Assembly (NCBI GenBank): GCA_029551925.1
Contig: JAKPEO010000028.1
Coordinates: 1-60,440, forward strand
Direction of reading: 5' to 3'
From: a bacterium
Lineage (GTDB): Bacteria; JAGOBX01
Length of the DNA: 60,440 nucleotides
Positions 2,682 to 9,394 of this stretch are shown here, in pieces. Numbering within the stretch: the first letter of the stretch is position 1; the number at the start of each line of letters is the position of its first letter. Below the pieces are notes generated by a model. That model was given only the letters and a program-made list of their open reading frames with translations, was not told the DNA's origin and ran no database searches. The translations under genes were made by a program, and so were the position numbers.

Positions 2682-3083
2682 ATGGATATTTTCAGCAGAA
2701 AAATTTTAAGTTATAAAATTTCAAATTCGCTTGATGCTCAATTTTGTATTGACGCATTAAATGAAGCATTGGCGAAATATCCATCGCCAGAAATTTTTAA
2801 TACAGATCAAGTGTCTCAATTTACTTCTGAAAATTTTTGCAAAATCATTATTGATAAAGATATTAAAATTTCAATGAACTCTACTGGCATAGCGCTTGAT
2901 AATATTTTTGTTGAACGCTTTTTTAGAACGATTAAATATGAAAATATTTATCTTTATAATTATGAATCTATATCTGTTTTATTTAATGCGCTCAATTATT
3001 TTTTTTATAAATATAATTTTTTACGCAAACATTCAGCGCTTGCTAATTTATGTCCTTAACAAGTTTATTATGGAAGCGAGTAG
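2682..3083 (+). pseudogene. IS3-family transposase (OrfB) fragment
   Basis: C-terminal part of an IS3-type DDE integrase. MDIFSRKILSYKISN at the start, NTDQVSQFTSE (second catalytic Asp; the usual G is V) and LDNIFVERFFRTIKYE (catalytic Glu) are diagnostic. The upstream part with the first catalytic Asp (TDITY region) is absent. A TAA at 3057-3059 interrupts the conserved tail, after which the same frame still reads QVYYGSE to a TAG at 3081. The usual DGRGR segment is altered to NSTGI. An inactive, decaying remnant. Confidence 0.85.
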
Positions 3084-3967: not shown

Positions 3968-4783
3968 ATGATACTCGGAAAAAAAATAAGATTAGAACGA
4001 ATAATGAATCGTTTGAATAAAAAAACAATAATAGTACCGTTAGATCACGGAGTCACTGTCGGACCTATTGACGGGTTAATTAATTTAACAAAAACAGTTG
4101 ACCAAATAGCGGAGGGCGGCGCTAATGCTGTTATAGGCCATTTGGGTTTACCTATTTACGGGCATCGTAATTCTGGCAAAGACATAGGATTGATACTACA
4201 TTTATCTGCAAGCACAAGTTTAGCACCTGATCCGAACTCCAAAGTTTTAGTAAATAATGTCAGACGCGCTATTAAAATGGGCGCTGACGCTGTTAGTATT
4301 CACATAAATATTGGCGCAGAAGATGAAAAAGATATGCTTCGCGATTTCGGAAATGTGGTTGAAGAATGTATGGAATGGGGGATGCCGCTTATTGCAATGA
4401 TGTATCCGCGCGGCAAAAAAATCAATCAAGAGAACGATGTAAATGTTGTCAAGCACGCGGCAAGGGTGGGAGCGGAACTTGGCGCAGATATAATAAAAAC
4501 CAATTATACTGGCTCGCCTGAAACATTTGCAGAAGTAATAAAGACCTGTCCGGCGCCTGTGATAATTGCCGGCGGCGAAAAATTAGAATCTGACGATGAT
4601 TTGCTTGAAATGGTATATTACGCTAATCAAGTTGGCGGCGCGGGCATATCAATCGGTAGAAATATTTTTCAGCATTCATCGCCAACAGCGATAGTTAAGG
4701 CGGTGGCTGCAATTATACATAATAATGCTTCAATAAAAGAAGCGCGCGAAATTTTAAATGAAGAGTTGAGAAAAAAGAAATGA
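3968..4783 (+). CDS. ADH synthase / class I DhnA-type aldolase
   Basis: A 271-residue class I (Schiff base) aldolase of the DhnA family. Its closest-looking members are 2-amino-3,7-dideoxy-D-threo-hept-6-ulosonate (ADH) synthases, which make the precursor of 3-dehydroquinate in the archaeal-type aromatic route. Relatives act on fructose 1,6-bisphosphate. Active-site residues expected for the family are present: Asp26 in PLDHG, Tyr146 in YPRG and the Schiff-base Lys177 in IIKTNYTG. The phosphate-binding IAGGEK and GISIGRN segments follow. The partner dehydroquinate synthase II is not in the window, so the substrate is not settled. First gene of an operon; its stop overlaps the next start by four bases. 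Confidence 0.8.
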   Translation: MILGKKIRLERIMNRLNKKTIIVPLDHGVTVGPIDGLINLTKTVDQIAEGGANAVIGHLGLPIYGHRNSGKDIGLILHLSASTSLAPDPNSKVLVNNVRRAIKMGADAVSIHINIGAEDEKDMLRDFGNVVEECMEWGMPLIAMMYPRGKKINQENDVNVVKHAARVGAELGADIIKTNYTGSPETFAEVIKTCPAPVIIAGGEKLESDDDLLEMVYYANQVGGAGISIGRNIFQHSSPTAIVKAVAAIIHNNASIKEAREILNEELRKKK

Positions 4784-6091: not shown

Positions 6092-6487
6092 ATGGAGAAT
6101 ATTGAAAATAACAAAAAATATAAAATACTCATAGTTGAAGATGAAATATTAATATCATTGAATTATAAAAAATTTTTAGAGCAAGAAGGATATCTAATAG
6201 ACATTGTAAAAAATGCAAATGAGGCATTAGAAAAAATACATAATGGCGTGAAATATGATTTAATAATAACAGATTTAGAAATGCCTAAATGGGACGGGAC
6301 ATATGTAATATCCGGTTTATATTCAAAATTAAAAGATTTAAAAATTATCGTCGTATCCGGCTGCGTTAATGATCCGCAATATAATGTAATAATTTCAAAT
6401 TTTCCTAATGTTTGCGCTACAATTGAAAAACCCATTGATTTGCATAAATTGTCTGAACTTATAAAGAAAATTCTGTATGAAAAATAA
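6092..6487 (+). CDS. Single-domain response regulator (CheY-like)
   Basis: A 131-residue stand-alone receiver domain. The acidic pocket is Glu16/Asp17 (VEDE), the phosphoacceptor is Asp61 in ITDLEMP, the switch Ser is Ser89 in VVSG and the invariant Lys is Lys113 in EKP. There is no output domain, so it must act through partners, like CheY or Spo0F. The MCE permease gene begins 30 bases downstream on the same strand, so the two may be co-transcribed. No histidine kinase is in the window. Whether it belongs to chemotaxis or another phosphorelay cannot be told. Confidence 0.88.
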   Translation: MENIENNKKYKILIVEDEILISLNYKKFLEQEGYLIDIVKNANEALEKIHNGVKYDLIITDLEMPKWDGTYVISGLYSKLKDLKIIVVSGCVNDPQYNVIISNFPNVCATIEKPIDLHKLSELIKKILYEK

Positions 6488-6517: not shown

Positions 6518-7294
6518 ATGCCGTTAAAAAACTTCCTAAAAAAAAAATTTAAGCCATTAGAAGGAGTAATCTATTTATTTTTTTACAATTTAAAAATTTT
6601 GTTTAGCGGCGAATGGCATCGTAGAAAGATGATTTCTACTCAAATGTTTAAGCAGATATTATTTACAGGAATAGATGCGCTGCCGCTAATTTTATTTTCC
6701 GCATTTTTAGTCGGATTTATTGTAATAGCGCAGTCGATAGTATATCTTCCGCAAATTGGTGGAAATGAATATATCGGAAAAGTATTGGCATTTGTTATTC
6801 GAGAAATTGGCCCGATAGTGATAATGTTTATTATTATAGGACGCAGCGGCAATGCTGTCAGCGTAGAAATGGCAAATATGAAATTAAACGGCGAAATATT
6901 TTATTTAGAAAAAATTTTGAAAATCGACGGTTTTTTATTTTTGATGTTTCCGCGATTTATCGGATTTGTTATCGCTATTTTATGTTTATCTGTATTTTTC
7001 AATGTTTTCACGATTTTAACTGGTTATATAAGCGCATTGTTTTTTATATATTCGCCAATTGGTGTTTTTCTTGAAAAATTGCTGCAATCCATCACAATTG
7101 TAGATATGATTGTCTGGATTATAAAAATATTAGTTTTTGGAATGATTATTTCGTTAGTAGCGTTTTATCAAGGCGTGAGTATTGAAAATACAGTGCGCGA
7201 AGTGCCACGAGTGACTACTCGCTGTTTTATACAAGCGATGACTTATTGTTTAGTTGTTGATGCTGTTATAACATTCATAGTTATTTTTATTTGA
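6518..7294 (+). CDS. MlaE-family ABC transporter permease (MCE lipid transport)
   Basis: A 258-residue inner-membrane permease of the MlaE family, which moves phospholipids between the inner membrane and a periplasmic MCE protein. The family pattern is clear: an amphipathic N-terminal helix, ALPLILFSAFLVGFIVIAQS, REIGPIVIMFIIIGRSGNAVSVEMANMKLNGE (residues about 93-127) and the C-terminal FYQGVSIE with V/TTR. Five membrane segments are apparent. It is the first transport gene in an operon with the degenerate ATPase-like subunit (4-base gap) and the MCE protein. Confidence 0.92.
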   Translation: MPLKNFLKKKFKPLEGVIYLFFYNLKILFSGEWHRRKMISTQMFKQILFTGIDALPLILFSAFLVGFIVIAQSIVYLPQIGGNEYIGKVLAFVIREIGPIVIMFIIIGRSGNAVSVEMANMKLNGEIFYLEKILKIDGFLFLMFPRFIGFVIAILCLSVFFNVFTILTGYISALFFIYSPIGVFLEKLLQSITIVDMIVWIIKILVFGMIISLVAFYQGVSIENTVREVPRVTTRCFIQAMTYCLVVDAVITFIVIFI

Positions 7295-7298
7295 TAGT

Positions 7299-7862
7299 AT
7301 GAAGGAAAAAATCGAATTTTTTTTTGATAATTATAATTACGAATTTCTTTTAAAAGAAACTATTCTAATTGTCGGCCATCAGAAATTTTTAAATTTTGCT
7401 ATTAAATCAATAAAAACACAATTATCTAATGATTGGACAAAATCTAATAATTTATTTTTTATAGCGCAGGTTGATAAAAACGCCGTGATGTTGAGCAATA
7501 TGAATATTCAACAAAATATGATACTGCCATTGTTATTTCATAAAAATTATAACGAGACGGAATCGCAAAAAATCATCAATGATTTGGCGGAATTATTTGA
7601 TTTAAAAATTTATGTTAATGTATTTCCTGAAAGTTTGAATATACAGCAGAAAAAAAAATATTCAATTATCCGCGCATTATCTTTGCAGCCGCAAATAATT
7701 ATAATTGACGAATGTTCAACTTTTGAACAGTCCGAATTTTTAGAAATTTGTAAAAAAATTAATGATATGGGAATAGTTGTAATTGCGACAACGGAAATTT
7801 TAACACTTGCAGATTATTATAAAAATATTATAATTATTAATGAAAAAATATGTTCTCATTAG
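7299..7862 (+). CDS. Degenerate ABC-ATPase-like subunit of the MCE system
   Basis: A 187-residue protein in the position of mlaF. It aligns by eye with MlaF-type ATPases: an IFIAQ-like Q-loop region (LFFIAQ, then ENVALPL-like QNMILPLLF), a helical segment, ESLNIQQKKKYSIIRALSLQPQ at the signature position, and IIIIDECST as Walker B with Glu. However, the Walker A site reads IVGHQKFLNF, without GxxGxGKS/T. The LSGGQ motif is LNIQQ, and the H-loop His is replaced (VIATTE). It cannot be expected to bind and hydrolyse ATP normally. No frameshift is apparent, and the gene is tightly packed: 4 bases after mlaE and 13 overlapping the MCE gene. Confidence 0.7.
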   Translation: MKEKIEFFFDNYNYEFLLKETILIVGHQKFLNFAIKSIKTQLSNDWTKSNNLFFIAQVDKNAVMLSNMNIQQNMILPLLFHKNYNETESQKIINDLAELFDLKIYVNVFPESLNIQQKKKYSIIRALSLQPQIIIIDECSTFEQSEFLEICKKINDMGIVVIATTEILTLADYYKNIIIINEKICSH

Positions 7863-9394
7863 CATTTAAGTTTAAACATTTGAATAAGTTTGTATTAACT
7901 TTCATAATAACAAGCAGTTTATTATTTATCGGAATAATTTATTTAATCGGTAATAAACAAAAATGGTTTGCTGAAAAGACCAAATATTATACTTATATTT
8001 ATGACAGTTCAAATATTTCTGCAGGCGTGCCTATAAAAATAGCTGGATTTGACATTGGCTTTGTTGATGAATTAAAACTTATAAAATTAGATAACAAACT
8101 CATTGTGCGCGTAGAATTTTATATTTTAGACAAATACAATGAATATGTTACTCAAGAATCGCGATTAATTTTGTATAAACCGGTAGTGGGTTTTCCGTTT
8201 TTTGAATTAGCGCAGAGCGGCGGAAAAATTATACGAACAGAAAATGATTTAACATTTATCCCAACAATTCGAGAAAATGAAATTATGGTTGGCGCGATGA
8301 ATCTTATGAATGATGTAAAAAATGAATTAATGCCGCTATTGGAAAATGTTAGAAAAATAAGCGAAGAAGTATTGATAATAACAAAACAGATAAACGAGCC
8401 GCATGGCAATATTCAAAAAATAATAGGACACAGCGAATATTTATTGAATAATATAAATTATGGCGAAGGAATAATAAGCAAATTATTAGCGGATACGCAA
8501 TATGCTGCTATGGCAATGAAAATGACAGACCAACTTAACAACATAATGGAAAAAATAAATATTACAATTATTGAATTAAATAAGATTGCCGTGCAGCTCC
8601 CTGAATATTCTAAAGATTTGCATTCTTTGATAAATACTAGCAATGAGCTTTTGAAAAATGTTAATGTTATATTAGGTTCACAAAATATTGATAAAATCAA
8701 TGCGATGGCTGCTACCTTTGAAGATTTAAGCAAAAATTTGAATGTGTTAACCGCTAATTTACGAGATATAACTACTCGTATAAATCGCGGAGAAGGCACA
8801 ATCGGAAAGATAATAACATACGATACAGTATATAATAATGTTGAAACAATAGTTGACGATTTGAAATCAACAATAAAAATTTCAAATGATTGGATAAAGA
8901 AAGTAGATGCATTAAAAATTCAGCCTGGCTTTGAACTCGGTTATAATTTCAAAGAAAAATTCGAACAATATAAAATTAGTTTGGGAGTGGGACGCGATAA
9001 AAAAAGTGGTTTTATGTTTAGCGCTAATATTTTGAATGGTATAGAATTTCAAAATAACCAAACAGCATTTAGGAATACAAATTTAACAGATGCGGAATTT
9101 GACAAATTAAAAGTAACTTTTGACGCTACTTATAAATTACAAATTTATGAATATCCGCTTCGCGTATATTTTGGTATTTTAAATTCTAATTTAGGTGTGG
9201 GTATTGACGCTGATATTTCTAAAAAAATTAATATTATCGCGGCGCTGCGCAAGACAAAAGATTATGAAAAATTGGAAAAGTCATATAATCCTAATTTTTT
9301 TGTAAGTTATGAAATATACAAAAAAATCAATATTTTTAGCGGAATAAATAGTTTATTTAATAAAAATGAGTTTGTAGCGGGGATAAAATATTAA
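7850..9394 (+). CDS. MCE/MlaD-family lipid transport protein with barrel-like C-terminus
   Basis: A 514-residue envelope protein. Residues about 12-33 are one transmembrane anchor. An MCE domain follows (about 42-120: YDSSNISAGVPIKIAGFDIGFVDEL, then KPVVGFPFFEL). Residues about 140-350 are helical and coiled-coil-like, typical of MCE needle or tether regions. From about 360 to the end, alternating hydrophobic strands with Gly/Tyr turns (FELGYNFKE, YKISLGVG, LRVYFGIL, NFFVSYEI, FVAGIKY) and a terminal Tyr look like an outer-membrane beta-barrel. That part is inference. It would let one protein bridge both membranes. It overlaps the ATPase-like gene by 13 bases. Confidence 0.85.
   Translation: MFSLAFKFKHLNKFVLTFIITSSLLFIGIIYLIGNKQKWFAEKTKYYTYIYDSSNISAGVPIKIAGFDIGFVDELKLIKLDNKLIVRVEFYILDKYNEYVTQESRLILYKPVVGFPFFELAQSGGKIIRTENDLTFIPTIRENEIMVGAMNLMNDVKNELMPLLENVRKISEEVLIITKQINEPHGNIQKIIGHSEYLLNNINYGEGIISKLLADTQYAAMAMKMTDQLNNIMEKINITIIELNKIAVQLPEYSKDLHSLINTSNELLKNVNVILGSQNIDKINAMAATFEDLSKNLNVLTANLRDITTRINRGEGTIGKIITYDTVYNNVETIVDDLKSTIKISNDWIKKVDALKIQPGFELGYNFKEKFEQYKISLGVGRDKKSGFMFSANILNGIEFQNNQTAFRNTNLTDAEFDKLKVTFDATYKLQIYEYPLRVYFGILNSNLGVGIDADISKKINIIAALRKTKDYEKLEKSYNPNFFVSYEIYKKINIFSGINSLFNKNEFVAGIKY

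Follow-up and report, generated by a model that had tools for sequence, protein, structure and literature searches.

Does an MlaE-type lipid transporter need a working ATPase at its MlaF position? The energy source and the direction of phospholipid transport by MCE systems are disputed, and one operon in the window (the whole 60,440-nucleotide stretch of bacterial DNA analyzed here) raises this question directly. Between its mlaE and MCE genes, in the position of mlaF, stands an open reading frame whose product has lost most of the motifs expected of a nucleotide-binding subunit.

An operon with a degenerate MlaF

The genes of the operon, and the motif positions within the second gene, are as follows:

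6518 to 7294, + strand: mlaE-type permease of a divergent ("X-type") clade, 258 aa, by its PF02405 match, tree placement and Pro230
7299 to 7862, + strand: degenerate MlaF-like subunit (putative pseudo-ATPase), 187 aa, by motif alignment and HMM scores
7374 to 7385, + strand: Walker A position, GHQK replacing GxxGxGKS/T (GQSGCGKS in the canonical sequence; alignment)
7491 to 7541, + strand: helical-subdomain motif LSNMNIQQNMILPLLFH, diagnostic of X-type MlaF (SN for NS/DS) and the most conserved part of the subfamily
7635 to 7649, + strand: signature position, LNIQQ replacing LSGGQ/M (alignment)
7695 to 7712, + strand: Walker B, IIIIDE, intact including the catalytic Glu (alignment)
7779 to 7796, + strand: H-loop position, VIATTE replacing VVTHD (alignment)
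7850 to 9394, + strand: MCE (MlaD-type) protein, 514 aa, by PF02470
9396 to 10532, + strand: 378-aa open reading frame without a family match, one base past the MCE stop

The permease matches PF02405 over its full length (E = 8.7e-44, profile positions 2 to 211 of 212) and falls under the cut-off of TIGR00056 (114.6 versus 212.2 bits). The MCE protein matches PF02470 at cut-off, with E = 2.1e-5 in a search of the window and 5e-6 in a search of the genome. Its N-terminal membrane anchor is followed by the MCE domain (residues 44 to 106) and a long helical region (approximately 140 to 350), and its last 150 or so residues are made up of strand-like segments, with GIKY at the very end, which possibly form an outer-membrane barrel, judging from the sequence. 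A single-sequence fold of this protein, with no relatives aligned, had a pLDDT of 35. No mlaA, mlaB or mlaC gene was found adjoining the operon.

A preliminary description of this DNA, made from the letters alone, had noted the absence of a frameshift and the tight packing of the genes, and both observations hold: the frame at 7299 to 7862 is uninterrupted, begins after a 4-base gap from the mlaE stop (7294) and is overlapped at its end by 13 bases of the MCE gene. Given the base composition of the window, the chance of a 187-codon open frame is ∼1.6e-7. Alignment to canonical MlaF also confirmed that this is a degenerate MlaF, that Walker A, the LSGGQ signature and the H-loop are lost (GHQK, LNIQQ and ATTE, respectively), and that Walker B is intact. 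The same description had the Q-loop-like region as kept, which proved mistaken, as the Gln is replaced (VFQN to VDKN). Four nucleotide motifs are thus gone rather than three, and Walker B alone remains; its retained DE is a point against reading the protein as a pseudo-ATPase.

The window MlaF is also short, at 187 aa compared to 243 to 302 aa in the canonical MlaFs aligned with it. The stretch from Walker A to the Q-loop is reduced by ∼20 residues, and there is no C-terminal tail, which in Escherichia coli MlaF contacts the other subunit and MlaB (PMC7784689). PF00005 matches it weakly, over residues 56 to 140 (E = 3e-4; 21.9 bits against a gathering score of 25). An HMM of X-type MlaFs, built without the window copy, scored it at 65.9 bits, compared to 42.6 bits for an HMM of canonical MlaFs, and this order is the reverse of that in every canonical MlaF tested. 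Identity to the other X-type MlaFs ranges from 15 to 25%, and the window copy is the shortest among those compared. Folded as a single sequence, again with no relatives aligned, it gave a pLDDT of 40.

The permease belongs to a divergent MlaE clade

We searched 386 genomes with the window MlaE and then with a profile. Twenty-two loci grouped at 353 to 258 bits, followed by matches at 222 and 221 bits and a remainder at or below 211; the 222-bit match (G139) was added as a member by its neighbor genes, giving 23 X-type loci. A further collection of contigs, searched with the same MlaE, yielded a single, distant match in Rickettsiales. In an IQ-TREE analysis (LG+C20), 34 X-type MlaE rows including the window split from canonical MlaE with 100/100 support, a value that applies to the clade as a whole and not to the position of the window within it, where its branch is long. 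The split has a marker in the alignment: position 230 is Pro in all 32 X-type rows but Gly in all 15 canonical ones, the GGAxGVG loop of canonical MlaE becoming xTEIPQ, and the window has this Pro. The coupling region keeps the general ExGxMxVxxE pattern. Divergence of the window's coupling helix was considered as a feature of this genome alone and rejected, since the alignment showed it to be mostly the common clade pattern. Also rejected were G418 as a clade member, which the tree puts with canonical MlaE, and decay of mlaE in G424, G431 and G459; apparent stops arose there because the alignment extended past the true start, and each gene has an uninterrupted, shorter frame.

The clade occurs in at least four phyla, namely, those of the window, of G262 (probably Nitrospirota), of G276 (in all three genomes sampled) and of G171, these four being demonstrably distinct. 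Across X-type loci the operon order E-F-D is conserved, often with a gene for a TPR lipoprotein after the MCE gene, whereas the window has in that place the 378-aa frame, for which a search of G001, a genome of the same family, gave no match.

MlaF motif loss across the clade

The adjacent MlaF was read at all 23 X-type loci. The H-loop His is gone from 20 of them, the catalytic Glu from 17 and Walker A from 12, and a complete ATPase set was found in only three (G358, G230 and G090). The preliminary description had asked whether the degeneration is lineage-wide, and it turns out to extend well beyond a single lineage. A canonical MlaF in this place in close relatives would have pointed to a strain-specific decayed copy, but none came to light; G001, the only sampled genome of the same family, lacks this MlaE.

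Loss is uneven among the degenerate members. Walker A is present in 8 of 20 sampled, some of which may therefore remain able to bind ATP, and the state of this motif needs at least six changes on the tree. The MlaF of G532 is intermediate: its Walker A and DEP are intact, but the H-loop reads VVTND and the signature position SLGL. Almost every stage of the decay can be seen within a single phylum (L236 and L250 in G532, L133 in G171 and L238 in G555), from MlaFs that have both Walker motifs and lack the H-loop His to MlaFs without Walker A, and this series helps to order the loss steps.

At the other extreme, L148, L213 and L214 (in G358, G230 and G090) combine an X-type MlaE with a fully canonical MlaF, with no adjoining MCE gene found; this state is possibly like an active ancestor or possibly a secondary re-pairing. 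Absence of MlaF was considered for G554, G557 and G521; in the first two it lies nearby, behind other genes, and in G521 the contig ends. In G398 none was found in the vicinity.

Selection and conservation in degenerate MlaF

In five genomes of the G262 family, MlaF lacks Walker A, the signature, the catalytic Glu and the H-loop, and its dN/dS is 0.11 to 0.19, near that of MlaE from the same genomes (0.05 to 0.15). Many of these pairs are near synonymous saturation; the two least diverged gave MlaF values of 0.12 and 0.19. Two other groups gave 0.16 to 0.34 and 0.23. These low ratios, indicative of purifying selection, imply that those genomes maintain the degenerate subunit as a protein. The preliminary description had drawn the same conclusion for the window gene from its intact frame and packing. 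Selection elsewhere supports it; as regards the window copy, which has no relative close enough for the test, we infer selection from the other genomes.

What is conserved has shifted along the protein. Among 23 thinned X-type MlaFs, the catalytic columns rank among the least conserved, with mean pairwise identities of 0.11 (Glu), 0.15 (H-loop) and 0.17 (Walker A), compared to 1.00, 1.00 and 0.74 for the same columns in the canonical set. The most conserved segment compared in X-type MlaF is the helical segment at residues 90 to 107, at ∼0.46. Position 94 within it is Asn in 23 of 23 X-type MlaFs, the window included in having Asn, and Ser in 13 of 13 canonical ones. Going by general ABC architecture, this MlaF segment would contact the coupling helix of MlaE. 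We read it as a docking surface for MlaE that would have been kept while the ATP site was dropped.

A possible structural role for MlaF

We favor, with somewhat better than even confidence, the reading that the window gene encodes a pseudo-ATPase, kept for its structural role in a lipid conduit of MlaE and MCE that operates without hydrolyzing ATP. Binding of ATP has probably been lost as well. ABC sites are composite, each combining the Walker A of one subunit with the signature of its partner (PMC7756269, PMC7784689). Because the window MlaF has neither its own Walker A nor its own signature, a homodimer would be left without a site, and a mixed dimer with either canonical MlaF of the genome (see below) without a complete one. 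In E. coli MlaF, the single substitution E170Q removes ∼80% of ATPase activity (PMC7784689).

In the mechanism that we propose, the pseudo-MlaF would keep the part of the ABC fold expected to dock on the permease, the ATPase motifs of the X-type subfamily having been lost stepwise, apparently the H-loop and signature first and then the catalytic Glu and Walker A. Two pseudo-MlaF subunits would clamp the cytosolic face of an MlaE dimer, and the dimer would bear a hexamer of the MCE protein, whose helices would form a long tube in the periplasm, making a lipid conduit from the inner to the outer membrane. Lipids would move through it by diffusion, or along a gradient made elsewhere, rather than by ATP strokes of the complex. 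Whether the entire branch of MlaE-type ABC systems, across the four or more phyla in which it occurs, has given up ATP hydrolysis and become a lipid bridge that is passive or powered in some other way, its former ATPase remaining as a structural clamp, seems to us evenly balanced.

Canonical MlaF genes and alternative explanations

The preliminary description had proposed searching the genome for a second MlaF, and the search was productive: the genome does encode such an ATPase outside the window operon. Contigs C85 and C26 of the assembly (2.96 Mb, 131 contigs, 86% complete) each carry a canonical MlaF gene (372.8 and 372.5 bits), with no mlaE or mlaD adjoining. The canonical mlaE genes of C70 and C110, two in addition to that of the window, stand alone in the same way, so that canonical MlaFs equal canonical MlaEs in number when the window operon is left aside. 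Four MCE proteins in the genome exceed the Pfam cut-off. G001 (87% complete), the only other sampled genome of the phylum, has a C110-type MlaE and a C26-type MlaF; it gave no match for the window MlaE and lacks the X-type operon, and no close counterpart of the C85 MlaF was found in it. Canonical MlaF is encoded in 20 of the 21 X-type genomes tested. The exception is G304 (99% complete, in one contig), where the MlaF of the X-type operon keeps Walker A and B.

The scattering of Mla genes in this genome is general. On C25, C26, C70, C85, C97, C110 and C118, the mlaE, mlaF and MCE genes are all solitary, the window operon being the exception, and several of the solitary positions are common to G001, such as an mlaE behind dnaB.

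This gene content leaves room for an ATPase from outside the operon. The degenerate subunit might form a heterodimer with the canonical MlaF of C85 or C26, the latter partner being catalytic, an arrangement that we consider unlikely. The two orphan MlaF genes would provide the partner, the C85 gene lacks a close counterpart in just the relative that also lacks the operon, and unlinked ATPases are known for MCE systems (MceG; PMC9882608). However, known asymmetric ABC transporters lose one composite site and keep the other complete (PMC7756269), whereas LNIQQ leaves a mixed dimer none. The two canonical MlaFs are, moreover, already balanced by the two orphan MlaEs, and in the solved complex an MlaE homodimer is served by an MlaF homodimer (PMC7784689). 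G304 has an X-type operon without any canonical MlaF, although its own MlaF keeps both Walker motifs, and the figure of 20 in 21 is weakened by how common MlaE systems are anyway, the MlaE search matching 306 of the 386 genomes.

It is also conceivable, but in our judgment quite improbable, that homodimers of canonical MlaF drive the X-type MlaE and that the degenerate MlaF acts in regulation or competition, replacing them under some conditions. The near-universal presence of canonical MlaF in X-type genomes and the retained coupling pattern of MlaE would both suit such an exchange. The pseudo-MlaF nevertheless shares one tightly packed operon with the MlaE and MCE genes that belong to it, an arrangement to be expected for a subunit, and Pro230 in X-type MlaE and Asn94 in X-type MlaF differ from all canonical ones tested.

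That the window copy is instead a decaying pseudogene of a lineage-specific operon would accord with its exceptional shortness, its low identity to other copies and the absence of a close relative with the operon. We regard this as very improbable, given the improbability of so long an open frame by chance, the tightly overlapping neighbors, the intact MlaE and MCE genes, the purifying selection on the same loss in other genomes, and the retention of the subfamily-invariant SN..N motif. Finally, an unorthodox mode of ATP binding through the retained IIIIDE, with binding alone gating the MCE conduit, would fit the Walker A kept by some degenerate members and is highly unlikely for the window copy, which has lost its signature and Q-loop Gln along with the lysine loop that binds phosphate.

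Relation to known transporters

A non-hydrolyzing, structural MlaF, the reading that we favor, can be compared with several known systems. The E. coli Mla system (MlaFEDB) and Veillonella MlaEFD share with the window a homologous permease, an MCE protein and an ATPase position. The Veillonella system is a minimal E-F-D set whose long MCE protein has been proposed as a transenvelope bridge (PMC10665443), and the 514-aa MCE protein of the window resembles that MlaD in length and layout, with the caveat that its barrel is a prediction. The window operon differs in an MlaF that retains Walker B alone, in the clade-specific MlaE and MlaF residues, and in having no adjoining mlaA, mlaB or mlaC. The Pqi and Let systems resemble our reading in that an MCE lipid conduit works with a membrane subunit (PqiA or LetA) without an ATPase domain (PMC12436622, PMC10897342); however, PqiA and LetA are not MlaE-type ABC permeases, whereas the window has a true MlaE with a retained, apparently dead ATPase subunit. 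Mycobacterial Mce1 to Mce4 likewise have operons without a functional ATPase gene and an ATPase elsewhere (PMC9882608), but these clusters as described contain no degenerate copy, and MceG is a working, shared ATPase. The preliminary description had held that an ATPase encoded elsewhere and operation without ATP hydrolysis would both be new for MCE transport, which is too strong because Pqi and Let provide the latter and MceG the former. Outside MCE transport, TAP, TM287/288, BSEP and Pdr5 have nucleotide-binding domains with degenerate Walker, signature or H-loop motifs. These transporters keep one full site (PMC7756269), whereas the losses in the window subunit would spoil both.

Our search of the open-access literature found nothing relevant on a degenerate or inactive MlaF, and an operon of mlaE, mlaF and MCE genes that retains a dead MlaF appears to be undescribed so far. 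A large survey of Mla systems found MlaF through synteny and a generic ATPase family, and called MlaF annotation uncertain (PMC10665443). An "ATP-binding protein" annotated beside mlaE should be treated with caution, as it may often be an enzyme unable to work. With its intact, half-degraded and fully degraded members, the clade amounts to a natural experiment in which ATPase activity is removed and the subunit kept. It suggests that a conduit of MlaE and MCE can serve a purpose even when no ATP strokes drive it and that the docking and catalytic roles of MlaF may be separable.

Genes upstream of the operon

Directly upstream of the operon and on the same strand, positions 6092 to 6487 encode a stand-alone response-regulator receiver domain. 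Further upstream, 3968 to 4783 encodes a 2-amino-3,7-dideoxy-D-threo-hept-6-ulosonate synthase, far over the cut-off of TIGR01949, an enzyme that belongs to the archaeal-type pathway for aromatic amino acids. A fragment at 2682 to 3059 has the look of an integrase-core transposase.
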